Positions 3,823 through 20,503 of a stretch of 64,000 nt of DNA are shown here, in pieces. Under the pieces are notes generated by a model. The model did no database searches and was not told where the DNA came from. It saw only the letters and a list, made by a program, of their open reading frames with translations. Numbering within the stretch: position 1 is the stretch's first letter; the number at the start of each line of letters is the position of its first letter. This stretch comes from Opitutus sp. ER46 (lineage in GTDB: Bacteria > Verrucomicrobiota > Verrucomicrobiia > Opitutales > Opitutaceae), in the NCBI RefSeq assembly GCF_003054705.1, contig NZ_QAYX01000023.1, positions 558,001 through 622,000 on the forward strand. Direction: 5' to 3'. The translations under genes and the position numbers were made by a program.

Positions 3823-4860
3823 TCAGTAGTGCTTCACGTAGCCGTTGCGACGGAGGCGCTCGAGCCACCGCTCCTGGCTGGTGTGCGAGAGCTGCGTGAC
3901 CAGAATGCGCTCGATCTGGTCGCGCACATCGTCGATCGGCTGGATGCCGGCGAACTTCCGGTCCTCCGCGAAGAGGATGAAGCAGCCTTCCGGGAGGAGG
4001 ACCGGCTCGGAGGCCTCGCCCTTCTTGAGATTGAAGGCCCGCTCACTGAATTCCTGCCGGAAATCGGAGCGCTTCAGCCAGCCCCAGTCACCGCCCTTGG
4101 AGCGGCGGGCATCACGGCTGTATTCCTTGGCGAGATCCTCGAATTTCTCGCCGCCGTTGAAGCGGGCGAGCACGAGGTTGGCCTGCTGCCGCAGCTTCTC
4201 GTCGGTTTCACCTTCGTTCCGCGTGAGCTGGATCAGCCGCAGGTGAACCTGATCCTCCTGGTAAAACTTGTCCTTGTTCTCGTTGTAGTAGGTCTCGATG
4301 CGCACCGGGCTGATGATCGTCTCGGACTTGCGCTGCTGACCGCGCATGTAGCCGTAGATGATCTCCTCTTCGACGTCGCGGCGGTATTCGCGGACCGTCT
4401 TTCCTTGGGCCCTCAGGTAGGCGAGGAACTTGGCGCGATCATTGTCGAACTGCTCGGCGATGCGGTCGGAAATGGCGTTGTCGACGTAGCTGACCGGGAT
4501 CTGACGCTTCTCGTCCTTGTGGAACTCCTTGATGATCAGCACGCGGTCGATCAGCTCCTGAATGACGCTGTCCTCGAGCTGCTCCATCTTCTCGTCGTAT
4601 TCCTTCTGGGAGCGGGCCTCGTTTCGGATCTGCTGCTGCAGGGGAATGATCTCCCGCATCACGTCCGCCACGGTGATGATCTTCTCCTCGGCGACTGCCA
4701 CAATGCCGTTGGCGAACCGCAGGTTCAGACTCTCCATCGTGTTGGGCGCAGTGATCTGCCCTTCAGCGCCGGCTGCCGGGGTGGAGTGGGGCGTTTGCGC
4801 GTAAACGGCCGCGCTCGTTGCGGCGGCAAAGACAAACGAGGCAAGGCGACGAAGGGTCAT
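3823..4860 (-). CDS. SurA/PpiC-type peptidyl-prolyl isomerase, exported
   Basis: Parvulin-type periplasmic foldase of 345 residues. A signal peptide (MTLRRLASFVFAAATSAAVYAQ) is followed by a SurA_N-like helical region with VNGIVAVAEEKIITVADVMRE-type spacing (about 50-180). The PpiC rotamase domain spans about 205-300 (VHLRLIQLT, FEDLAKEYSRDARRSKGGDWGW, FNLKKGEASEPVLLPEG), and a C-terminal helix ends in YVKHY. It would assist folding of outer-membrane proteins such as the TonB receptor. The ATG at 4860 overlaps the mfd stop as ATGA, so translation is coupled to mfd. The in-frame extension to 4989 is rejected because it hides the signal peptide. A strong terminator follows. Confidence 0.88.
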   Translation of the reverse strand: MTLRRLASFVFAAATSAAVYAQTPHSTPAAGAEGQITAPNTMESLNLRFANGIVAVAEEKIITVADVMREIIPLQQQIRNEARSQKEYDEKMEQLEDSVIQELIDRVLIIKEFHKDEKRQIPVSYVDNAISDRIAEQFDNDRAKFLAYLRAQGKTVREYRRDVEEEIIYGYMRGQQRKSETIISPVRIETYYNENKDKFYQEDQVHLRLIQLTRNEGETDEKLRQQANLVLARFNGGEKFEDLAKEYSRDARRSKGGDWGWLKRSDFRQEFSERAFNLKKGEASEPVLLPEGCFILFAEDRKFAGIQPIDDVRDQIERILVTQLSHTSQERWLERLRRNGYVKHY

Positions 4861-7800
4861 GGACTCGGCAGATTGATCAGAAAGGCGATGATTTCGCGCA
4901 ACCGTAGGAGGGGCTTGGGGGCGGTCAACCTTGGAAACCGGGTTCCAACTTGCACCCAGTCGTCCCGTCGGCCGGAATTGCGCAAACACTTGAGGCGGTT
5001 GGAGTCGGTTTCGACGGAAACGATGCCCTTTTGTTCCGCCCGGATCCTGATCTCAGTGATTAGCAACAGCGCCCGGACCTCGTCGCCGAACTTGCCGAAC
5101 CGGTCGCGCAAATCGTCTTCGAGTTGCTTGAGCGCCGGCAACGACTCGGCCAGGGCCAACTTGCGGTAAAAATCGATGCGCAGCCGGGTCTCGCCGAGGT
5201 AAGTCGACGGGATGCGCGCCTGGATCCGGGGGACCTCGACCACGGCTTCGTCCTCGGCGGCCTTGATGGCCGTGTAGCCGTCCATGTGGCGGCCCCGCTC
5301 GCTCGTGCCGCTGGCGCCCGCATCCGCGGCCGGCCCTTCCCCGACGAACACGAAATCCAGCTTCACGCTGGCGCGGACGTGCGACGCGGTTTTCTCGCCC
5401 TTCAACCGCGCCACCGATTGCCGGAGCAGCTGGCAGTAGAGTTCAAAGCCGACGCCGACAATGTGCCCGCTCTGTTCGGCGCCGAGCAGGTTGCCGGCGC
5501 CGCGCAATTCCAGGTCGCGCATCGCGATCCGGAAGCCCGCGCCGAGCTGGTTGTGCTGCCGCATCGCGGTCAGGCGCTGGCGGGCCACGTCGAGCAGCCG
5601 CGTGTGCCGGTGGAGCAGGAGATAGGCATAGGCCTGGTGCTTGAAGCGTCCGACCCGGCCGCGAAGCTGGTACAACTGCGACAGCCCAAACCGGTCCGCG
5701 CCTTCGATGATGATCGTGTTGCAGTTTGGAATATCGAGGCCGCTCTCGATGATCGTCGTGCAGACCAGCAAGTGGTACCGGCCGGCGACGAACTCGGTCA
5801 TGACCTCCTCCAACTCGTGCGACTCCATCTGCCCGTGTCCGACACCGATCGTGAGGTCCGGCAGGAGCTCGCGCAGCCGGGCCGCGACCAGGTCGATGGT
5901 GTCGATGCGATTGTGCAGGTAGAAAACCTGGCCCCCGCGTCGGATCTCGTGCCGCACCGCCTCCACGACGAGCTTCTCGTCGTAGGTCTTCACGATGGTC
6001 TGGATCGGATGCCGGTTTCGCGGCGCCGTCTCGATCACGCTCAGATCCCGCGCGCCGGTCAGCGCCATGTAGAGGGTGCGCGGAATCGGCGTCGCGCTCA
6101 TCGAGAGCACGTCGACGGTGGACCGGAGCCGCTTGAACACCTCCTTGTGCTTCACGCCGAAACGCTGCTCCTCGTCGATGATCACCAGCCCCAGCTCCTT
6201 GAACACCACGTCCCGCTGCAGCAGCCGATGCGTGCCCACGAGGATGTCGACCTGGCCCGCGCCCAACGCCGCGATGACCTTGCTCTGTTCGGATTTCGTG
6301 CGGAAGCGACTCACCATCTCGACGGCGATCGGGTAGCCGGCCATCCGTTCGCGAAACGTGTTCAGGTGCTGCTGCGCCAGGACCGTCGTCGGCACCAGCA
6401 CGGCCACCTGCTTCCCGCCCTGTACCGCCTTGAAGGCGGCCCGGATCGCTACCTCGGTCTTGCCAAAGCCGACGTCGCCGCAGATCAGCCGGTCCATCGG
6501 CCGCGTGCGCTCCATGTCGGCCTTCGTTTCCTGGATCGCCCGCAGTTGGTCCGGCGTTTCGGTGAACGGGAATGAGGCCTCGAACTCCTTCTGCCAGGTG
6601 TTGTCCTCCGCAAACGCGAACCCCGGCTCGGCTTCCCGCGCGGCGTGGATGCGCAAGAGCTCCGCCGCGAGGTCGATCGTGGCGCGCTCCGCCGCCTGCC
6701 GGGCCTTTTCCCACCGGCCCGACCCGATCCGGCCGAGCTGAGGCTTGGCCTTGCTCAGGCCGACGTAGCGGCTGATCAGGTGCGACTCCTGCAACGGCAC
6801 GTGCAGCGTCACGTGATCATCGAACTCGAGTGAGATCACCTCGCGGATGCCCTCGGCGGTGTCGAGTTTCGTCAGCCCGCGGTACAACGCGATGCCGTGC
6901 TGCAGGTGCACAACGAAGTCGCCTTCGACCAGTTCGGAAAAATCAAGCAACTGGTCGATTTGCGCCCGCTGCGCCATGGCGCGCTCATTCAGCGCCGGTC
7001 GCCGCTGCCGTTTCCGCCCGAAAATCTCCGTCTCGCTCACTACCACCAGCCCGGCGCTGCCGGCCAAGACGGCCTCGTTCTTTGCGGCCTGGCCCCTGCG
7101 GGGCTTGCCCGGCGCCGGTCGCGCCCACGTCAACGCCGCGCCCGCGCGATACGTGATCCGAAAGCCCTCGTTCAACCCGCCGCGCAACCAGCGCGCGTTG
7201 ATTCCTTTCAGCGCCGCATCCGCCCCGAGAATCTCCTGCGAGCGCTGCTCCTCGCCCTCCTTCGAGGTCACGAACACCACGTCGTACCCTTCGCGGTTCC
7301 ACTTTGCCACCTGCTGCAGAAACGTATGTCGCGCCTCCTCTTCCACGTGCAGGCGTTCCTGTGCAACCAGCGCGTCGTCGGGATACGAGCGGTGGTGCAT
7401 CAGGCTCTCGCTGTCCCACGTCGTTTCGTCACCCACGTCCTCAAACAGCGCACTCGCCTCGTCCAGGTCGCTCACGCCGTAGAGCGCCGCGCATTTGTTG
7501 AGCAACGGCGTGAGCGCGTCGCCTTGCTCGCGCGCGATCGTGCTGAAGGCCTCGTCGAGCCCGGTCGGCTCCACCAGCACGAGCCGCAGCGCCGCATTGA
7601 AGTAGTCCGCCAACCCGGTCTTCGAGGGATCCAGCTTCACCCGCGGCGACGCGGCGATGGAGATCGTCTCCACCGTCGTCCCCGAACGCTGGGTCACGGG
7701 ATCGAACTCGCGGATCGTCTCGATCTCGTCGCCGAAGAAATCGAGCCGGTACGGCGTGTTCGCCGTGATCGGATAGACGTCGATGATGCCGCCGCGGACC

Positions 7801-12012: not shown

Positions 12013-13371
12013 TTACCGGGGCAGCTCCACGATCACCCGCAGGCCTGACCGGTCGGTGCGGTTTTCGGCCCGCAGCGTGCCCCGGTGCAGGTCGACGATC
12101 CCCTTGCAGATCGCCAGGCCCAGACCATGGCCGGGGCGGGGCCTCGGCGCCGCGGCGCCATGGTCAAAGCGTACGAAACGCTGGAAGACCCGCGCGAGTT
12201 GCGCCTCCGGCAGCCCGGGGCCTTCGTCCACGACCACGAAGCACCATCCGTTTGCGAGGGCAAAGGACTCGAGGGTGACCACGCCGTTCGGGGGCGAGAC
12301 CGACATCGCATTGATCACGAGGTTGAGCAGCATTTGCCGCAGCAGGTCGGCGTCGCCGCGAATCTCGCCCTCCTCGTTTCGCGCCAGGTGGAAACGCACC
12401 CCGCGGTCCTCGGCCAGCACGTCGGCATCTTCGGCAAATGCCGCCATCAGCTTCGGCACCACCACCGGCACCAGGGGAAGATTGAGCGCGCCGCTTTCCG
12501 ATTTTGCCAGGAACAGCAGGCTCTCGATGACCTGGTTCAACCGGGCGATCTCCTCGAGGATGTCGGCCAGCGCCGCTTCGTTTTCGGTCTCGGTGGTGCG
12601 CCCGCCCCGCAGCTTCTCGACGTTCAGGCGGATGAGCGCCAGTGGCGTCTTGAGCTCGTGCGAGGCGTCGGCCGTGAACTGCCGGACCTGTTCAAAGGAC
12701 TCCTGCAGGCGGTCGAACATCTGGTTCAGCAACCGGGTCAGCGCCGCGAGTTCGTCGTGGCCCGGCGGTTCCGGAATGCGCTCGGTCAGGCGGTCACCGC
12801 GAATCCGGCGCGCCGTCTCTTCGATGGCGCGAATCGGCCGCAGCGTGGCCCGGCTGAAGTTGTAGCCCAGGCCGACGCTCGCGAGCCCCACGGCGATCAC
12901 CAGCATGACCGAGATGCGGACGTAGTCCCGCAACAACCTCTCCGATGGCTCGAGCGGGCTCCCAATCTGGATCTGGTACGTGCCGAACGGGAACGAAGAG
13001 AGATGCACCCGGCCCAACGCCGGGAGGGCAATCGTCCGGTGCTCCGGCGCGTGGCCGACGGGCAGCACCGTGTCCCGCAGGTTGTCCGAACGGAACACCA
13101 CCTTGCCGCCGCCGTTGAGCACCTGGATCACGAACAGCGCGGCGTCGTTGTCGGAGTCGCGTTTGATGCGTTCCGCGAGCGCGGCCGGCGCGATGTCCGG
13201 ATCTCCGCCGATCAGATCGCGGAGTTCCTGCGCCTCGACCTCATGGAGCAGTTCCAGACCGCGCACGACCTGGTGATTGAGCAGCATCCCGCCGACCGCC
13301 AGCACGGCTGCGGTCGTGAGGGTGACCAGCACGGCGAAGCGGACGGTGAGACGGAGGGTGAAGGATTTCAC
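12013..13371 (-). CDS. Sensor histidine kinase (OmpR-system partner)
   Basis: Membrane sensor kinase of 452 residues. TM1 is about 12-32 and TM2 about 152-172, flanking a periplasmic sensor of roughly 115 residues. A HAMP segment (RPIRAIEETARRIRGDRL) follows, then HisKA with phospho-acceptor His238 in ADASHELKTPLA. The HATPase domain has N box LLNLVINAM, G1 DEGPGLP and G2 GHGLGLAICKGI. The start is GTG at 13371, overlapping the stop of the response regulator as GTGA, so the two are translationally coupled. The signal sensed is unknown; the neighbouring oxidase operon upstream could be a target, but nothing proves it. Confidence 0.95.
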   Translation of the reverse strand: MKSFTLRLTVRFAVLVTLTTAAVLAVGGMLLNHQVVRGLELLHEVEAQELRDLIGGDPDIAPAALAERIKRDSDNDAALFVIQVLNGGGKVVFRSDNLRDTVLPVGHAPEHRTIALPALGRVHLSSFPFGTYQIQIGSPLEPSERLLRDYVRISVMLVIAVGLASVGLGYNFSRATLRPIRAIEETARRIRGDRLTERIPEPPGHDELAALTRLLNQMFDRLQESFEQVRQFTADASHELKTPLALIRLNVEKLRGGRTTETENEAALADILEEIARLNQVIESLLFLAKSESGALNLPLVPVVVPKLMAAFAEDADVLAEDRGVRFHLARNEEGEIRGDADLLRQMLLNLVINAMSVSPPNGVVTLESFALANGWCFVVVDEGPGLPEAQLARVFQRFVRFDHGAAAPRPRPGHGLGLAICKGIVDLHRGTLRAENRTDRSGLRVIVELPR

Positions 13372-14036
13372 GAGAGCTGGTATCCGGTGCCACGGATCGT
13401 CCGGATCAGCGGCTCCACGCCGGGGCGATCGAACTTCTGGCGGAGGCGGCGCACGTACACGTCGATCAGGTTCGTCCCGAGATCGTAGGAGGCGTCCCAG
13501 ATCTTCTCGGCGATCATCGTGCGCGTGAGCACGCGCCGCGGGTTTTGCAGGAAGAGCTCGAGGAGGGCGAACTCCCGGTTGGTCAACTCGATCGGCTGGC
13601 CGTCCAGCTGCGCCGTCCGCGCCAGAAGATCGAGCGTCACCCCGCGGTGCTCCAGGATCACGGCGCGCGGCGCCGTGCCCTGGCGGCGGAGCAGCGAGCG
13701 AACCCGCGCGATCAGTTCGTCGACGCTGAAGGGCTTGGGCAGATAGTCGTCGGCGCCGAGGTTGAGCCCCTGGATACGGTCTTCGACCGCATCCCGCGCG
13801 CTGAGAATGAGCACGGGTTCGTCAAAGCCGCTCGCGCGCCACTCCCGCAGCAGCACCAGGCCGTCACCGTCCGGCAGACTGAGGTCGAGGATCAGGGCGT
13901 CGTACGGCGAATCGGCCAGCGCGTCGCGCGCCGCCGCCGCCGTGCCGACCAGGCGCACGGTATACGCCTGCTCCACGAGCGCGCGCTCCACAAAGCGGCC
14001 CACCTTGTCGTTGTCCTCGATAATCAGAATCTTCAT
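13368..14036 (-). CDS. OmpR/PhoB-type response regulator
   Basis: Two-component DNA-binding regulator of 222 residues. In the receiver domain the acidic pair is E7/D8, the phosphorylation site is Asp51 (ALILDLSLPDGDG) and the conserved Lys is in DDYLPKPFSVDEL. The C-terminal winged helix has the usual ELTNREFALLELF and NLIDVYVRRLRQKFD segments ending in IRTIRGTGYQL. The ATG at 14036 gives the standard N-terminus MKILIIEDN; the longer frame to 14438 runs into the cytochrome gene and is a shadow. It is 19 bases downstream of the fused cytochrome gene on the same strand, so it may share the oxidase transcript. Confidence 0.95.
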   Translation of the reverse strand: MKILIIEDNDKVGRFVERALVEQAYTVRLVGTAAAARDALADSPYDALILDLSLPDGDGLVLLREWRASGFDEPVLILSARDAVEDRIQGLNLGADDYLPKPFSVDELIARVRSLLRRQGTAPRAVILEHRGVTLDLLARTAQLDGQPIELTNREFALLELFLQNPRRVLTRTMIAEKIWDASYDLGTNLIDVYVRRLRQKFDRPGVEPLIRTIRGTGYQLS

Positions 14037-14055: not shown

Positions 14056-15927
14056 CTAGCGGCGCGCGGGCGGCGGGTGCAACGTTTGGACGTAACGTGC
14101 CAGACCGAGCACTTCCCGGTCCGAGAGGTATTCGTGTCCGGCCATCGGGAGACCGGGCAGACCGAACTTGATGATCCGCGCCACCTGCAGTTCCGGGTCG
14201 GCTCCAGCGACGACATGCCGCCAGGGCGCGGCGGGCCAGTCGGGCGGACGCAGACTGAGGCGGCCCGCCAACGGCCCGTCGCCATGCCCTTCGGGGCCAT
14301 GGCAGGCCGTGCACAGGCGCAGGAAAAGCCGGCGGGCCTCCGCCGGCGCCAGTGCGTCGGCGGTGGCCGGGGCCCACGCGGCGATCTGCGCGGCCCGAGC
14401 CTCACCGGTGTCACGTCCGAGCGACGCCAGGTACGCAATCAGGTCGGCCCCGCGGGAATCGCCGTCCGCGAACAGCCCCGCATAGGACGGCATCCGCGAT
14501 CCGGCCGACACGCTGCCGGGCGAGATCAGGTGCAGCCGGTTCCATTCGGGCGAGCGACGGTTGCCTACCTGCGAGAGATCTGGCCCCTGGCGGCGGGTGC
14601 CGAACAGGGGCGGCGCCGCCTCCAGCGACTCCGGGAAAGGCACGCCGGGCCCCCAATTGCCGACCTCGGTGCGCACGCGGGGGCGGATGTACTGCGAGTG
14701 GCAGTGGATGCAGCCTTCGGAAATATAGACTTCGCGGCCCCGCACCACGGGATCAGCCGAGGCCGATTCGCGGGCGCAGCCGGCCGACAGCAGGACAACG
14801 ACCGCCATCGCGGCGAGGGATGCTCCGAAACGAACCTGCCTCGCCCGCCACAATGCCGCCGCCACCGCGGCTGCGGCGACCACGACGAAGGCGGTCGGCA
14901 CCCGATCCAGATCCTGCGCCATGCCGACGCCGAGCGCGGAGCCGGTCCATCCGGCAACCGCAAAGACCGCGGCCGCAACGCCGCGCCGCCCCGTGCGGGC
15001 GGGAAAGTCGACGAGCAGCGTCGAGTAGAGCGAGACGCCCCCCGTGTACCACCAGCCGGCGAAACTCGCCCCGGGCAAAACGCCGTCGAGGATCAGGCAC
15101 GCCACACCCAGGAGGGCCATGGCGGATGCGGCGACGCCGATTCGAACGCCACGATCAAGCAGGATCCCCCCGACCACCGCCGCCGCGAAATGAACCCCGG
15201 CATTCGCCCACAGGAGGTTGGACGTGCCCCAGGTTGCCGCGCGCAGGGCGGGCGTGTGCTGGATGACATAGAACGCCGCCGAGTCCATCCACACGAGCGC
15301 GAGCAGGACGACGATCCAGCGGATTACTCCGCCGCTCCGGCTCCGTTCGGCCGGGAGCGAAGGCGGCTCCGGCGCCTGCATCCAGCGCGGCAGTGCGGAC
15401 GCGAGCAACGCGACCAAGGCGGCGACGAGACTCTGCGTGGTGGGTGAGGCTTGAAACAGGATCGGCAGGTTGCAGGTGGCGTAGGCCAGCCCCGTGCCGG
15501 CGCCGATGCACAACCCAAGTCGCCGCTCACCTGCGGCGGCGCGGAGGGCCGAGGCGAGCGCGACGGTCACGAACCCGAGCGACAGCCCCACCGCCGCGGC
15601 GGCGATGATCAGTCCAGCCCAGGAGGAGACCGCGAGTGCCAGGAGCGCGCTGGCCGCGCCCGCGCGGAGGCCCCAGGCGAGGCTGCTGTTGCCACGTGCG
15701 GCCGCCCACCGGCGGCTGGCAGCCAGCACCGCCCCGGAGATGCCGCCAAGGCAGAGAGCCGCGAGGATGAGACGAAGCTGGTCGGCCGCGGGGACGCTCG
15801 CCCGCGCGAGTTCCAGGAACGCGAACTCCGCGAAAATGAGGAAGTACACGTACGTCGCCGTGATCGCCCCGAGCGCCGCAAACCAGGAACGAACCGGGTG
15901 CTGGGGAGTTGGAGCCGTCGGCGTCAT
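14056..15927 (-). CDS. Fusion: 12-TM MFS-like domain + CcoO-like cytochrome c + second cytochrome c
   Basis: Unusual 623-residue protein. Residues 1-365 form about 12 hydrophobic helices with MFS-like layout and no cytochrome motif. A further helix (367-384) ends in a lipobox-like LLSAGC. Residues 390-500 are a c-type cytochrome closely resembling CcoO of cbb3 oxidases: EGCIHCHSQYIRPRVRTEVG (heme site C406-C409-H410), TRRQGPDLSQVG, and RMPSYAGL with the Met ligand. A second cytochrome c (about 530-615) has CTACHGPEGHGDGP (C539-C542-H543). It should carry electrons to the oxidase-like subunit encoded just upstream, whose stop overlaps this ATG (ATGA at 15927). In the normal ccoNO pair CcoO is a single-helix protein. 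The role of the MFS-like part is unknown. Confidence 0.85.
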   Translation of the reverse strand: MTPTAPTPQHPVRSWFAALGAITATYVYFLIFAEFAFLELARASVPAADQLRLILAALCLGGISGAVLAASRRWAAARGNSSLAWGLRAGAASALLALAVSSWAGLIIAAAAVGLSLGFVTVALASALRAAAGERRLGLCIGAGTGLAYATCNLPILFQASPTTQSLVAALVALLASALPRWMQAPEPPSLPAERSRSGGVIRWIVVLLALVWMDSAAFYVIQHTPALRAATWGTSNLLWANAGVHFAAAVVGGILLDRGVRIGVAASAMALLGVACLILDGVLPGASFAGWWYTGGVSLYSTLLVDFPARTGRRGVAAAVFAVAGWTGSALGVGMAQDLDRVPTAFVVVAAAAVAAALWRARQVRFGASLAAMAVVVLLSAGCARESASADPVVRGREVYISEGCIHCHSQYIRPRVRTEVGNWGPGVPFPESLEAAPPLFGTRRQGPDLSQVGNRRSPEWNRLHLISPGSVSAGSRMPSYAGLFADGDSRGADLIAYLASLGRDTGEARAAQIAAWAPATADALAPAEARRLFLRLCTACHGPEGHGDGPLAGRLSLRPPDWPAAPWRHVVAGADPELQVARIIKFGLPGLPMAGHEYLSDREVLGLARYVQTLHPPPARR

Positions 15928-17162
15928 CGTGCCAGGGCGTCCACCCACCAGCGAATCGCGGCCGCCGTCATGCTGGCCCCGGCGACGAGTCGGGTCGCGA
16001 ACAACGCCTGCGTCCAGGGCTCACTGCGAAAGAGTTCGGCCATGTGCGGGACTTCCTGCACGCCGAGCACCACCATTGAGCCAACATAGACGGCGCAGCC
16101 CGCCTGCCAGGCGAGGAAGACGCCGCGCGGCGCGGGCCGGCCGGTGAGCACGGTCAGGATGGCGGCGTGGACGCAGGTCACCAGGCCCGCCATTGCCAGG
16201 TGAGCGTGGCCGACCATGGCGTGGGTGAACTTGAGGCGCTCCGAGATCCCGGGCAGGTACGTGATCCAGCCGGTGAGGATCAGCACCGCCCACCACACCG
16301 CGGCGGCGCGGAGCCAGATGCGGGCGGAGTCCGGCCAGGCGTGGTGACGCCAGAACAGCGGCAGGAGCGGAATCCAGAGAAACAGGGTCGTCAGCGTCAG
16401 CACCGTGCCGCGCACGTGGTGGGAGACGTAGCCGCGATCCACGGTGGCAAACACGAGCCAACCCAGTCCGAGCACGGCGTAGAACCAGCGGACCGGGCGG
16501 CGGGTGCGCAGCCCCAGCCAGAGGGGAACGAGCATGAAGATGGCCACGATCCCGAGGGTTGAACCGAGCAGCGCCGCGCCGGTCGCCCCGCCGCTATCCG
16601 GGTTGATCGGCTGATAGATGTCCCGGCTCAGCGTGTGAAAGAGGACGCCCGGCACGACTGCCAGCAGCGCGAGCAAACCGGCCCGCCCGGCGCGGGCCAG
16701 CGGCGGGAGCATGGGCCAACGCCGCCAGGTTTGGCGCGCCAGCACGCCCCACAGCACCACCATGGCCGCGGGCAGCAGCGGGCGCGCCCAGCCGTGCCAG
16801 TCGAGGAACAGCTTGCCACTCACGTTGCCGGCGAGCCACGACGCGCCGCCGAGCAGGAGCGCCAGGCTCCAGACGAACAGCGCGAGCCGGGCATCGCGCG
16901 TCGCCCTGGAATCCGCGGGATCGAGGTACCAGGCGAACAGCGCGCCCACGAGCGGCAGCGAGCACCAGCCGTACAGTTGCCAGTCGAGATGCAGCGGCGC
17001 CCAGCGGCCGAACGTCAGCGGCGCAAGCGCGTTGCCGAGCGCGGGCCACAGCAGGCTCAGCGCGAGCCAGACGCCGACGAGGTTGGCCGCCGCCAGCCAG
17101 CCCAGGCAGTACCGAGCGACCGTGCGACCGTAAGGGGGCGGTGCCGCAACCACGGCACTCAT
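15924..17162 (-). CDS. Divergent heme-copper oxidase subunit I (CcoN-like / NO reductase-like)
   Basis: Twelve-helix membrane protein of 412 residues that aligns by eye with the catalytic subunit of cbb3-type oxidases. Candidate heme ligands are His58 (PLHLDWQLYGW, helix II) and the HxH pair His319/His321 in VGHAHLAMAG (helix X). A His pair, 248-249 (GYVSHH), falls where helix VII carries two CuB ligands. In helix VI, where CcoN has GHNAVGFFLT, this protein reads DSGGATGAALL, so the third CuB His seems replaced, with Asp189 nearby. Such changes occur in NO-reductase branches of the superfamily, so oxygen reductase, NO reductase or another activity remain open. The ATG at 17162 overlaps the ABC ATPase stop. 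Confidence 0.75.
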   Translation of the reverse strand: MSAVVAAPPPYGRTVARYCLGWLAAANLVGVWLALSLLWPALGNALAPLTFGRWAPLHLDWQLYGWCSLPLVGALFAWYLDPADSRATRDARLALFVWSLALLLGGASWLAGNVSGKLFLDWHGWARPLLPAAMVVLWGVLARQTWRRWPMLPPLARAGRAGLLALLAVVPGVLFHTLSRDIYQPINPDSGGATGAALLGSTLGIVAIFMLVPLWLGLRTRRPVRWFYAVLGLGWLVFATVDRGYVSHHVRGTVLTLTTLFLWIPLLPLFWRHHAWPDSARIWLRAAAVWWAVLILTGWITYLPGISERLKFTHAMVGHAHLAMAGLVTCVHAAILTVLTGRPAPRGVFLAWQAGCAVYVGSMVVLGVQEVPHMAELFRSEPWTQALFATRLVAGASMTAAAIRWWVDALAR

Positions 17163-17842
17163 GTGGCGATCTCGTCGAGGCCGCCGTCGCGGACGCGAAT
17201 GATCCGATGGCACGCTTCGGCGAAACGACGTTCGTGGGTGGCGAGCACCACCGCGATGCCCTCGCGTTCGACCAAGTCGCGGAGCAAGCCGAACACCGTC
17301 GCGCCCGTGGCCTCGTCGAGCGAGCCCGTCGGCTCGTCCGCCAGCAGGAGCGACGGGGCGTTCATCAGCGCCCGGCAGATCGCGGCGCGTTGCCGTTCGC
17401 CGCCGGAGAGGTCCTGGATGCGATGGGTGAGGCGATGACCGATCCCGAGGTGCCCGGCGAGCTGCTCGAGCCGCGCGGTGGCGGCCGCCCGGGGCGTGCC
17501 GATCGCGAGCGCCGGCACCCGCAGGTTCTCGGCCACGGTGAGGTCGGGGATGAGGTTGTGCAGCTGAAAGACAAAGCCCAGCCGCCGGCGCCGCAGCACG
17601 ATCCGGTTGGCCTCCGGCCGTGGATCGAGATCGCACACCGCAAGCTCGCCCCGGTCCGGCACGTCGAGCCCGCCCAGGAGGTGCAGGAGCGTGCTTTTGC
17701 CGGAACCCGACGCGCCCCACAACGCGACCAGTTCGCCGGCCCGGACATCAAGGCTGACGTCGCGCAGGACCGCGATGCGACCGCGATCGTAACTCTTGGA
17801 GACGTGGCGGGCGCGGACGAGAAGCGGGCGTGGTTCACTCAT
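17159..17842 (-). CDS. ABC transporter ATPase, LolD/MacB type
   Basis: ATP-binding subunit of 227 residues with Walker A GASGSGKST, Q-loop FVFQLHNLIPDLTV, signature LSGGERQRAAICRAL, Walker B SLLLADEPTGSLDE and H-loop ATHERR. It belongs to the LolD/MacB/FtsE group that works with FtsX-type permeases, which drive mechanical transmembrane movement and not classical import. The start overlaps the end of the permease gene by eight bases, and its stop overlaps the oxidase subunit start, so this transporter is made together with the oxidase. Confidence 0.93.
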   Translation of the reverse strand: MSEPRPLLVRARHVSKSYDRGRIAVLRDVSLDVRAGELVALWGASGSGKSTLLHLLGGLDVPDRGELAVCDLDPRPEANRIVLRRRRLGFVFQLHNLIPDLTVAENLRVPALAIGTPRAAATARLEQLAGHLGIGHRLTHRIQDLSGGERQRAAICRALMNAPSLLLADEPTGSLDEATGATVFGLLRDLVEREGIAVVLATHERRFAEACHRIIRVRDGGLDEIAT

Positions 17843-18947
17843 AGCGAAGGGCCTCGGCGGGCTCGATGCGCGCGGCGAAGCGGGCTGGATAGAGGGCGCC
17901 GGCCGCGGCGGTCACAAATGCCGTGCCGATGATGCCCAGCAGCACCGGCACATCGATGCCGGAGCGGACGTAACCCTGGAACTGCGGGAGCCGCTGCAGC
18001 ACGGCGAGCAGCCCGAAGCCAAGGGCAAAGCCGGCGGTCACGCCGGCAGCCGCGACCGAGGCGGCCTCTCCGAAGATGAGGCCGGCCACCTGGGCGCGGG
18101 AAAAGCCGCAGACCCGCAGGACCGCGATTTCGCGGATCCGGGTGAAGACCGACAGCAGCATCGTGTTCGCCACGCCCAGCCCCCCGAGGCAGAACGCGCA
18201 GATGCCGACGGCCCAGGCCGTGAAGTTGAGAATCTTGAAGCTGTTGTACGTGGAGTTGAACTCGCGGTTCTCGAGCGCGATCACGCCCGGCTCTGCGGTC
18301 GTGATGCCGGCCTTGAACGCGTCGCCGCGGCGGCGGTCGCGCAGCTTGACCGTGACGACCGAGGCGGCGTCGCCGCGGTGGAAGAATGCCTGCGCCTGCG
18401 CCAGCGGCATGAAGACGCCGCCGTCCTCGAATCCGTTCTCGGTCTGGAACACGCCGCCGACGCGGAACTGGCCGCGGCCGATCGCGATGGTTTCACCGGC
18501 GCGGGCCTGCAGGAACTCGGCCGCGCGCGAGCCAAGATACACTTCGTCCTCACGCGCTCCGAACGCCGCCGGCGTGCCGGACTGCCACTTCGCCCGCGCC
18601 AACCGCGGGTCCGACGGCTCGATGCCGAAGCACGTGATGACCGGATGGTCCGGAGCGGAGACAACGCCAAACAGGACCGGGTGGGCGGACTCGACTTCGG
18701 GGCGGGCCCGGATGGCCGCGACCTGCTCGCGGGTGACCGAGCTGAAGAACAGGTCCGACACGTTGCGCTCAAAGACCAGGTAGTGGCTGTCGCTCGAGAG
18801 CAACCGTTGAAACATCCCGATGGCGCCGGTCACGATCGCGACGATCGTGAGCATGGCGGCGACGCCGAAGGCGATGCCGGCGGTGCCGATCAGGGCGCGG
18901 CCGCGGTGCCGGCGCAGGTTGGTGAAGACGAGGGAGAGAACTTGCAT
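17835..18947 (-). CDS. ABC transporter permease, MacB/FtsX type
   Basis: Permease of 370 residues with one N-terminal helix (about 18-42, NLRRHRGRALIGTAGIAFGVAAML), a large extracytoplasmic MacB-core-like domain (about 45-230) and three C-terminal FtsX helices (from about 240: GICAFCLGGLGVANTMLLSVFTRIREIAVLRVCGFSR). The ending PARFAARIEPAEALRYE is the usual one. It pairs with the ATPase downstream. Its place in an operon of respiratory and isoprenoid genes suggests a role in moving a lipid, heme or cofactor for oxidase assembly, but that is inference from neighbours only. Confidence 0.92.
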   Translation of the reverse strand: MQVLSLVFTNLRRHRGRALIGTAGIAFGVAAMLTIVAIVTGAIGMFQRLLSSDSHYLVFERNVSDLFFSSVTREQVAAIRARPEVESAHPVLFGVVSAPDHPVITCFGIEPSDPRLARAKWQSGTPAAFGAREDEVYLGSRAAEFLQARAGETIAIGRGQFRVGGVFQTENGFEDGGVFMPLAQAQAFFHRGDAASVVTVKLRDRRRGDAFKAGITTAEPGVIALENREFNSTYNSFKILNFTAWAVGICAFCLGGLGVANTMLLSVFTRIREIAVLRVCGFSRAQVAGLIFGEAASVAAAGVTAGFALGFGLLAVLQRLPQFQGYVRSGIDVPVLLGIIGTAFVTAAAGALYPARFAARIEPAEALRYE

Positions 18948-18953
18948 GCGGAT

Positions 18954-19928
18954 TCAGGCGGCGAGCCGGCGGAGTTTCCCCGCCAGCGGGGCGGCGGCTT
19001 CGGCAAAACTGCGCTGAAAGCCGTGCAGGTAGCCCCAGGCCGGGCGGAGCCGCCCAAGCTGGTCGACCTGGCGCGCGGCGAGCGTCAGCAGCCGGTTGAT
19101 GCGTACCCGGGATGCCGATACTCCGAGGGCGAGGGCCAGGTTGGGCCGGGTCAGGGCGCGGTCACGTTGCGTGGTCTTCTGGGTGTCCACGCTGTTGCCC
19201 AGCACGTCCTGCAGGTCATCGAGGGCCTGGAACGCGAGCGCCCAGTGCGTGCACAAGGCGTTCAGCGCGTGCTGCTCGGCGGCGCTGGGGCGGGCCAGCA
19301 GGGCCGGAATCGCGAGCCCGAGGCGGAAGGTGGTCCCGGTCTTGGCGAGCGCCACCCGACCGACCTCGCGGGTCGTGCGCGGCCCGCGCGCAAAACCGAG
19401 ATCGCGCGCCTGCCCGCCGACGAGCCCATTGGGCCCCAGGCTCGCCTCGAGGGCCGCGTGCGCCCGCCGGCGCACCGCGGGCGGAAAGCTGGCGAAGGCT
19501 TCGCCAAACGTGGCGTACGCCCGGTTGATGAAGGCCAGCGCGGCGAGGACGGCCGTCGCTTCGCCGTACACCCGGTGAACACATGGCTGGCCCCGACGCA
19601 CCGCCGCGTCGTCCATGCAGGGCAGATCGTCAAGAATCAGGGACGCCAGATGGTAGTACTCGACCGCGACGGCGAGTTGGAGACCTACGGGCGCGGCGAC
19701 GCCGTGCGCCGTGGCCGTGGCATACGCGAGTTGGGCGCGCACAAGCTTGCCCGGGCGGCCGGCAAGCATGCCAATCGCCGCGCGCAACCGGGGCTCCGTG
19801 GCCGGGTTGACCGGGGCATGTTCGACGAGCGCCGCGGCCAGACGCGCCTGGAGATCTGCGCCGCCCGGCCGGGCTGGCGCGGGCTGAAGGGGCGCAACGT
19901 TCACGAGGGTGGGAGAGGGCGCGCTCAT
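18954..19928 (-). CDS. Polyprenyl (farnesyl/geranylgeranyl-type) diphosphate synthase
   Basis: Trans-isoprenyl diphosphate synthase, 324 residues. The first Asp-rich motif is of the IspA kind, LILDDLPCMDDAAVRRG (DDxxxxD), and the second is FQALDDLQDVLG (DDxxD). The motif lengths suggest a short-chain product (C15-C20), and GNSVDTQKTT is near the usual KxT site. It has an unusual proline/alanine-rich N-terminal tail of about 25 residues. ATG 19928 overlaps the yceI stop (ATGA), and the ABC permease follows 6 bases after its own stop. Possible roles in this setting are quinone or carotenoid supply, or the farnesyl group of heme O. Confidence 0.88.
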   Translation of the reverse strand: MSAPSPTLVNVAPLQPAPARPGGADLQARLAAALVEHAPVNPATEPRLRAAIGMLAGRPGKLVRAQLAYATATAHGVAAPVGLQLAVAVEYYHLASLILDDLPCMDDAAVRRGQPCVHRVYGEATAVLAALAFINRAYATFGEAFASFPPAVRRRAHAALEASLGPNGLVGGQARDLGFARGPRTTREVGRVALAKTGTTFRLGLAIPALLARPSAAEQHALNALCTHWALAFQALDDLQDVLGNSVDTQKTTQRDRALTRPNLALALGVSASRVRINRLLTLAARQVDQLGRLRPAWGYLHGFQRSFAEAAAPLAGKLRRLAA

Positions 19929-20503
19929 GGCGAAACCGCGGCGGTGGCGGCGGAGGCCGGGAGCCGTCCCTGCACGTGGAAGCGCACATGCACGACCGGG
20001 TCGACCTTGAGGAGGCCGAACATCCGGATGATGGGCAGACCGTATTCGCGGGTGTCCACGGCCGCGTTGCCATCGATCGCGTAGAGCGTTCCGTCCTTCG
20101 TCACCGTCGCGGGGAACGAGAGCTCGCGGCGCACCCCGTGGAATGTCAGCCAGCCGGCCGCCGTGAATCCCTGGTCGGGGTTGGCGTGGAGCGACCCGAG
20201 GATGAACTCGCCGTCGGGGTGTTCGGACGTGTGCTGCCACTCGTGCATGGCCTCGTCGCGCTTGGGCTTGCCGGTGTCGACGTCGCGGAAGTGGAACGCA
20301 AGCCGGGCATGCGAGACCATCCCGTCGTCGCCGACAGTGATCATCGGCTCGAATCGAGTCAGATGGCCCGTGAAGGAATCGACGGTGGCTTTGACGAGCA
20401 CCTCGACCTGGGACTGCGCGAAGTCGATGGCGAGGGGACGTTCGCCGGCGTGCAAGACGCCGGGACTGAGGCAGACGAGCAGAAGGGCGAACCGGGGGAA
20501 CAT
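19925..20503 (-). CDS. YceI family periplasmic protein
   Basis: Secreted lipocalin-like protein of 192 residues. It has a signal peptide (MFPRFALLLVCLSPGVLHA) and then the YceI fold, with VKATVDSFTGHL, FHFRDVDTGKPKRDEAMHEW and TAAGWLTFHGVRRELSFP, all hallmarks of the family. Structurally studied members bind long isoprenoid chains in a central cavity, which makes the overlap with a polyprenyl diphosphate synthase gene striking. It is the first gene of the oxidase operon: a good Shine-Dalgarno AAGGGG lies directly before the ATG, and a palindrome flanked by direct repeats lies just upstream. Confidence 0.92.
   Translation of the reverse strand: MFPRFALLLVCLSPGVLHAGERPLAIDFAQSQVEVLVKATVDSFTGHLTRFEPMITVGDDGMVSHARLAFHFRDVDTGKPKRDEAMHEWQHTSEHPDGEFILGSLHANPDQGFTAAGWLTFHGVRRELSFPATVTKDGTLYAIDGNAAVDTREYGLPIIRMFGLLKVDPVVHVRFHVQGRLPASAATAAVSP

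Follow-up and report, generated by a model that had tools for sequence, protein, structure and literature searches.

A conserved operon of Opitutus sp. ER46 with a CcoN-like protein of eroded CuB site: a possible cell-envelope isoprenoid-quinone module

The subject of this study is an operon built around a CcoN-like membrane protein in Opitutus sp. ER46. It lies on the minus strand of a 64,000-nucleotide stretch of DNA (contig NZ_QAYX01000023.1, positions 558,001 to 622,000), which is called the window here and supplies the coordinates below. The operon's probable function is to handle a quinone-like lipid of the cell envelope and not to respire oxygen, because an isoprenoid-tail synthase, lipid transporters, an isoprenoid carrier, and an oxidase relative that has lost most of its copper site (CuB) are conserved together. 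To the reading that it is a dedicated cell-envelope isoprenoid-quinone module, and not a terminal oxidase, we assign a probability of about 0.45.

Heme-copper oxidases are usually seen as reductases of oxygen or nitric oxide (NO) whose hallmark is a copper or iron site next to a heme. Retention of both heme sites in a widespread family whose metal site decays, and whose genes accompany those for quinone lipids, implies a new use of the fold. It also bears on whether quinones leave the inner membrane on purpose and on what the common YceI lipocalins do. A literature search by title or opening of the abstract revealed no description of the operon or of a CuB-less heme-copper oxidase family; its coverage of subscription papers was thin, which makes it weak evidence.

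RESULTS

Gene order and conservation of the operon

In the order of transcription, the genes are yceI, a polyprenyl diphosphate synthase (PPS) gene, an ABC permease gene, an ABC ATPase gene, the CcoN-like gene, and a gene for a fusion of an MFS domain with cytochromes, followed by genes for a response regulator and a sensor histidine kinase. The order of the first six, which a preliminary description made from the window alone had called an operon, was found again with its four overlaps (4, 8, 4, and 4 bases) and its one 6-base gap; the regulator and kinase extend the run.

Relatives of the CcoN-like protein were collected by a scan of species genomes and by a pattern-free search. The scan used two search patterns, one around H319/H321 and the other on an NP-SGGAT stretch, and was thus biased toward sequences keeping those residues. 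It gave 89 relatives, 80 of which were kept; the pattern-free search added 18 regions that agreed with the pattern-found ones, for a total of 98 loci. Dereplication reduced these to 89, and 58 of them had flanks of 4.2 kb or more upstream and 3.7 kb or more downstream, the other 31 having short flanks. One further locus (L090), whose 9,990 upstream bases were all N, was dropped to leave 57. Partner genes were scored only on the strand of the CcoN-like gene and within 6 kb of it.

Across the 57 loci, YceI was found in 52, PPS in 49, the permease and ATPase in 52, the MFS domain in 51, and the cytochrome in 55; the full eight-gene set was present in 38. A small membrane gene occurred in 48 loci (one of the two copies tested matched DUF4345 weakly), the window being among the minority without it, and orthologues of the two-component pair stood in the same place in 24. 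The divergence of each of six partner genes tracked that of the CcoN-like gene (r of 0.87–0.92 in 49 loci; 0 of 500 permutations each). This is expected for a co-inherited unit, but shared descent alone would give it too.

A form of the operon without the ABC pair, in which PPS directly precedes the CcoN-like gene, was found in L076 (where the PPS gene is fused), L082, L083, L104, and L121; in L090 and L117 the downstream region resembles this form and the upstream region is unreadable. Of these, L082 is labelled Verrucomicrobia and the others Acidobacteria, Acidobacteriota, or Thermoanaerobaculia. Two loci from the family of the window (L027 and L028) also lack the pair. Record labels in the species-genome scan included Opitutaceae, Verrucomicrobiaceae, Akkermansiaceae, Acidobacteria, and Thermoanaerobaculia, among others. 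The CcoN-like gene was present in 19 of 100 genomes sampled from the family, that of ER46 among them. A scan of 387 genomes of the phylum gave a match above 300 bits in 19 and any match in 59, the remaining 40 having short, weak matches only; tblastn against plasmids gave no match.

The preliminary description had proposed a gene-order search, and had said that an order found only here, or oxidase loci lacking YceI and the synthase, would point to chance neighbors. The order extends well beyond the window, and YceI and PPS accompany the CcoN-like gene at most loci. Judging from these comparisons of gene order, we conclude that the arrangement is not due to chance, that it is a real and widely conserved unit including YceI and PPS, and that this unit is larger, and its distribution far wider, than the window alone could reveal.

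The CcoN-like protein has kept its heme ligands and lost most of its CuB site

Structure prediction, another suggestion of the preliminary description, was performed for the CcoN-like protein (15924 to 17162). The AlphaFold2 model and its comparison with the PDB showed the subunit I fold of the heme-copper oxidases; a search of the PDB by sequence only gave no relevant match. Ligands were counted in 84 family sequences, namely the window protein and 83 relatives, aligned jointly by MAFFT with 20 true CcoN proteins of the same bacterial family; the rest of the 98 matches had been removed for coverage or identity. The low-spin heme ligands H58 and H321 and the high-spin heme ligand H319 were present in all 84 sequences and aligned with the CcoN ligands. 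Because one search pattern contained both H319 and H321, their invariance is partly built in for the loci that the patterns retrieved; they were likewise invariant in the 19 sequences of the pattern-free set.

The first CuB histidine is absent from the window protein, and its column in the joint alignment held histidine in none of the 84 sequences. At the nearby position 196 (TGxS, compared with YGHN in CcoN) the residues were A in 51, S in 15, T in 9, H in 5, G in 2, V in 1, and W in 1. The second CuB histidine (H248) was present in 79 and the third (H249) in 53, both being found in the window protein. Counted by absence, with 196 taken as the first position, the first was missing from 79 and the third from 31, and a full CuB triad was possible in one sequence (L040). 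The column of the cbb3 catalytic Tyr, in transmembrane helix 7 (TM7), held Thr in the window protein and Tyr in 3 of the 84. The window protein thus has neither the complete three CuB histidines nor the TM7 Tyr of a cbb3 oxygen reductase, and it also lacks the complete three histidines of the FeB site of the NO reductase cNOR, the Glu of which was not examined.

Small residues mark the copper-ligand region: G191, G192, G195, and S201 were present in all 84 sequences (G191 and G192 lie within a search pattern). A proposal that the invariant G195 occupies the copper-ligand position itself was rejected; it came from a single hhalign alignment, hmmsearch and MAFFT place the position differently, and five sequences have His at 196. 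Because the alignments disagree in this way, the case for CuB loss rests on the counts of conserved histidines and not on any one alignment. From these counts we conclude that the family has kept its heme ligands and that its CuB site is eroded.

A regular CcoN scoring above the ccoN cut-off was found in 29 of 41 family genomes, including that of ER46, and in 39 of 41 when weaker matches, divergent and partial ones among them, were added. Oxygen reduction is therefore already covered in the 29.

Several unusual relatives were seen. L040 (9261 to 10622 of that locus, minus strand) is the sole family member with His at 196, 248, and 249 and may be a relict that still has a metal site; in L039, L041, L071, and L075 the His at 196 is accompanied by Asn at 248. 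The ER46 genome has another divergent CcoN-like gene (L004; G000:C23:517975-519141), located some 39 kb ahead of the window, with a 503-amino-acid frame that matches COX1 at 77 bits. Because its TM2 heme His is replaced by Arg (GRVEALRESAFIYG) and no H-x-H motif was seen by eye, this protein may bind no heme. A second, low-scoring CcoN match was common among family genomes.

The operon PPS is an extra paralogue

The PPS gene (18954 to 19928; Pfam, 117 bits) encodes intact DDxxxxD (DDLPCMDD) and DDxxD (DDLQD) motifs. Residues D100, D101, D106, R111, R112, K196, Q234, D237, D238, and D241 were present in all 71 operon PPS, that of the window included, so that both Asp-rich motifs and the catalytic basic residues are in place. 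The sets used for the PPS counts (71) and for the FixO/cytochrome counts (79) were filtered by coverage and identity, as for the CcoN set. Five residues before the first Asp-rich motif stands an Ala, in the window enzyme and in 70 of the 71. Among 50 other PPS from family genomes, 18 had the same long DDxxxxD motif, all with Tyr at this position, and 32 had a short motif and Ala. The copies with Tyr are of the farnesyl diphosphate (FPP) type, and in FPP synthase a change of this Tyr to Ala makes the product longer.

In a tree with 31 other PPS, mainly the top-scoring copy of each genome, the 71 operon copies formed an exclusive group with a support of 0.92. When 19 more were added, which included FPP-type copies and three that are third PPS encoded away from the operon, the group was still exclusive of all 50 others, at a support of 0.59. 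The ER46 genome has three PPS, the operon copy being the third. The CcoN-like gene was present in nine of 31 family genomes; in eight of them the operon copy is the third PPS, while G021, the ninth, encodes just two PPS and none in its operon. Three other genomes (G006, G018, and G022) have a third PPS located elsewhere. The operon PPS is thus intact by its motifs, and it is an extra, separate paralogue.

Other isoprenoid genes join the operon at some loci. A type I isopentenyl diphosphate (IPP) isomerase gene lies between yceI and PPS in L041 and L075 (196 bits against a cut-off of 127 in L075; assigned by 50% identity in L041), and in L042 one lies near the operon on the opposite strand. In L076 (7539 to 9932, plus strand) PPS and isochorismate synthase (MenF) share one open frame (TIGR00543, 293 bits; cut-off, 225), an unusual joining of the enzymes for the tail and the headgroup of menaquinone.

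Quinone and lipid-transport genes

The first gene of the unit, yceI (19925 to 20503), encodes a 192-amino-acid periplasmic lipocalin of the YceI family (Pfam YceI, 57.4 bits; cut-off, 23.7) whose N terminus, judged by eye, resembles a signal peptide. Its sole sequence match in the PDB at E < 0.1 was the YceI-like protein 5ixh (E of 0.0069), which is named BcnA in PMC9113575.

The ABC pair had been described as MacB/LolD-type, and this held. The permease (17835 to 18947) matched MacB_PCD at 76 bits and FtsX at 59 bits, with lolCE as its top NCBIfam model (80 bits; cut-off, 362), and LolD was the top model for the ATPase (17159 to 17842; 210 bits, cut-off 308); neither equivalog cut-off was reached. 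An HpnN/BstA-like RND pump lay downstream in six of the seven loci of the ABC-less form, the seventh (L121) ending too soon to tell. The two pumps tested scored 317 and 290 against an HpnN cut-off of 752.

In L083 the operon runs on into a metallo-beta-lactamase-fold gene and then into genes for an RND pump, a polyprenyltransferase resembling UbiA, and a weakly BstC-like protein (28 bits; cut-off, 350). The UbiA scored 301 with a quinone-type model (cut-off, 181) versus 68 with ctaB (cut-off, 210); a UbiA in L117 is known by its similarity to that of L083 only. Some 7 kb upstream of its CcoN-like gene, L086 carries MenD (254.5; cut-off, 244.2). The family genomes have the Men route to menaquinone: MenD was above its cut-off in 30 of 31 and PF02621 was found in none of the 31. 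Isomerase, MenF, MenD, and UbiA each occur in one to three loci, and none is in the window operon.

These results divide the earlier proposal of a respiratory module that makes and delivers its own isoprenoid. Its isoprenoid half is strengthened by the IPP isomerase, MenF fusion, UbiA, MenD, and RND pumps, and its oxidase half is not supported, given the CuB ligand counts. Among the isoprenoids then considered, the heme O side chain is not favored, the L083 UbiA being of the quinone type; no separate search of the loci for ctaB or heme O synthase was made.

The fusion protein and the regulators

The fusion gene (14056 to 15927) encodes an MFS-fold domain of approximately residues 1–385, a FixO/CcoO-like c-type cytochrome with a CIHCH motif and the Met of MPSY, and a second cytochrome c with a CTACH motif that is weakly ccoP-like (17 bits; cut-off, 180). 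The OmpR-type response regulator gene (13368 to 14036) is co-directional and begins 19 bases after it, and the sensor histidine kinase gene (12013 to 13371) overlaps the regulator gene by 4 bases. The pair (12013 to 14036) is nearest to heavy-metal (copper/silver) regulators, yet under both subfamily cut-offs (cztR/silR/copR, 209 versus 279; cztS/silS/copS, 210 versus 293).

DISCUSSION

Proposed role of the operon

In the mechanism that we propose, PPS would make the long prenyl tail of a menaquinone-type quinone, and the ABC transporter or RND pump would lift the quinone lipid out of the inner membrane. YceI would then ferry it through the periplasm, as YceI proteins do elsewhere with ubiquinone-8. 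The complex of the CcoN-like and CcoO-like parts, whose hemes would lie close to the periplasmic side, could exchange electrons between membrane quinol and the carried quinone by way of heme b, heme c, and the second heme c. A likely use would be to keep an antioxidant quinone of the envelope reduced, as has been proposed for BcnA/LcoA, and the two-component pair would turn the operon on under envelope, metal, or redox stress. That a copper-less oxidase scaffold has been rebuilt as a periplasm-facing heme relay, with one operon of Verrucomicrobiota and Acidobacteriota encoding the whole quinone route, is a tentative idea that we consider somewhat unlikely. If it were true, no earlier pathway dedicated to exporting quinones to the periplasm or outer membrane would, to our knowledge, be on record.

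The closest parallel is in Burkholderia. YceI proteins carry octaprenyl compounds or ubiquinone-8, and BcnA (a YceI protein) and LcoA (a cytochrome b561), which form a lipid-peroxyl-radical detoxification system, lower lipid peroxidation; re-reduction of BcnA-bound quinone by LcoA is put forward there as a proposal (PMC9113575). By analogy, the module may work like BcnA/LcoA with a different heme protein. In both, a YceI lipocalin adjoins a b-type heme membrane protein, but that of the operon has the heme-copper-oxidase fold, and the operon further includes c-type cytochromes, a prenyl synthase, lipid pumps, and an MFS domain. No cytochrome b561 model was found among the Pfam matches of the six proteins up to an E of 1. 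Because b561 is replaced, the operon is not a member of the BcnA/LcoA system as defined.

Other known systems share parts with the operon. It resembles the cbb3 oxidase (CcoN/CcoO/CcoP) in the fold and heme ligands of CcoN, in the FixO/CcoO-like cytochrome with its Met ligand, and in the weakly ccoP-like cytochrome; it differs in the eroded CuB site and in having the CcoO-like domain fused behind an MFS domain. Models for CcoQ, CcoG, CcoH, CcoI, and CcoS were not matched by the six proteins (for the ATPase, among its best 25 NCBIfam matches). The permease and ATPase belong to the same ABC transporter group as LolCDE/MacB, but they fall far short of the LolD and LolCE equivalog cut-offs, there is a single permease gene, and YceI rather than LolA would be the partner carrier. 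Hopanoid transfer to the outer membrane needs HpnN, according to the title of a cited paper. BstABC bind sterols and are the proposed means of sterol transport to that membrane (PMC10942540). RND pumps of this group stand at six loci, together with the BstC-like protein of L083, but the RND scores are under the cut-offs; genes for hopanoid or sterol synthesis were not searched for at the loci. Finally, Cbp2D (YceI/X158) of Cellvibrio, like the operon, puts a quinone-binding YceI domain alongside c-type cytochromes, fused in its case, and the cytochrome domain donates electrons to lytic polysaccharide monooxygenases (LPMOs). It differs in being carbohydrate-binding and found in secretomes, and the sections seen describe no membrane heme b protein or prenyl synthase with it (PMC8981238).

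Points against this role, and alternatives

Several results weigh against a quinone module. A quinone prenyltransferase or headgroup gene is absent from the window's own operon; the MenF fusion, MenD, and UbiA are each in only one or two loci and could be local accidents, and the fusion is one metagenome open frame. PPS is missing from 8 of the 57 loci, and YceI and the ABC pair are each missing from 5, which means that the unit can do without any one of them. The exclusive group of operon PPS was only moderately supported (0.59) once FPP-type paralogues were added. Some metal site may also remain, because H248 and H249 persist (79 and 53 of 84), Tyr occurs in 3 of 84, and L040 could form a triad.

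One alternative is that the complex is a divergent but genuine terminal oxidase or NO reductase with an isoprenoid made and delivered by the operon itself. We rejected this on the CuB ligand counts and consider it very unlikely: the first and third CuB histidines are so often missing (79 and 31 of 84), Thr replaces the catalytic Tyr in the window, and a regular CcoN is present in 29 of 41 family genomes, that of ER46 included. The operon might instead be an electron outlet, in which a dedicated quinone is oxidized and the c-type cytochromes hand its electrons on to acceptors in the periplasm or outside the cell, for example minerals or enzymes that attack polysaccharides oxidatively. The two-heme periplasmic cytochrome fits such an outlet, as does the donation of electrons to LPMOs by the YceI-cytochrome fusion Cbp2D (PMC8981238). 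It is nevertheless unlikely in our judgment, since it leaves the lipid pumps unexplained, and no multiheme, porin-cytochrome, or oxidative-enzyme genes were noticed by eye in 16 loci, where no dedicated search for them was made.

The protein could also be a membrane heme enzyme that modifies an isoprenoid lipid in an open high-spin heme pocket, with the cytochromes supplying electrons and the transporters and YceI moving the product to the outer membrane. The small residues that fill the copper-ligand region (mostly A, S, or T at 196), the retained high-spin ligand H319, and the movement of polycyclic isoprenoids by HpnN, and as proposed by BstABC, are consistent with this. We hold it to be quite unlikely, as there is no substrate evidence and we know of no heme-copper relative that carries out isoprenoid-modifying chemistry. 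That the genes are chance neighbors is scarcely credible when the same order recurs in Verrucomicrobiota and, minus the ABC pair, in records labelled Acidobacteria, with 38 of 57 loci holding the full eight-gene set. A quinone module of the cell envelope is thus the reading that we prefer.

Other observations on the loci

In L067 and L072 an apparent histidine-biosynthesis cluster of about 7 kb splits the operon and the MFS-cytochrome gene lies beyond it; because counting was limited to 6 kb, these two loci were scored without MFS and cytochrome. Large proteins are inserted in L087 and L114 and a sulfatase in L108. We read all of these single-locus insertions, which were named by eye, as unrelated to the operon.

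A metallo-beta-lactamase-fold hydrolase (PRK00685-like, below the cut-off) was found near the operon in 29 of 99 sequences, from both phyla; examples are at 4423 to 5346 in L086 and 4709 to 5665 in L083. Beside the operon in 26 of the 99 sequences was a gene, mostly on the opposite strand, for a protein that looks thioredoxin-like by eye, matches no NCBIfam model, and starts with what resembles a signal peptide, as at 6075 to 6560 in L112 and 5510 to 6034 in L075, both on the minus strand. The operon is also present in records of strains, as opposed to metagenome bins: Haloferula luteola YC6886 (L086), Luteolibacter marinus NBU1238 (L109), and Opitutaceae bacterium EW11 (L061).

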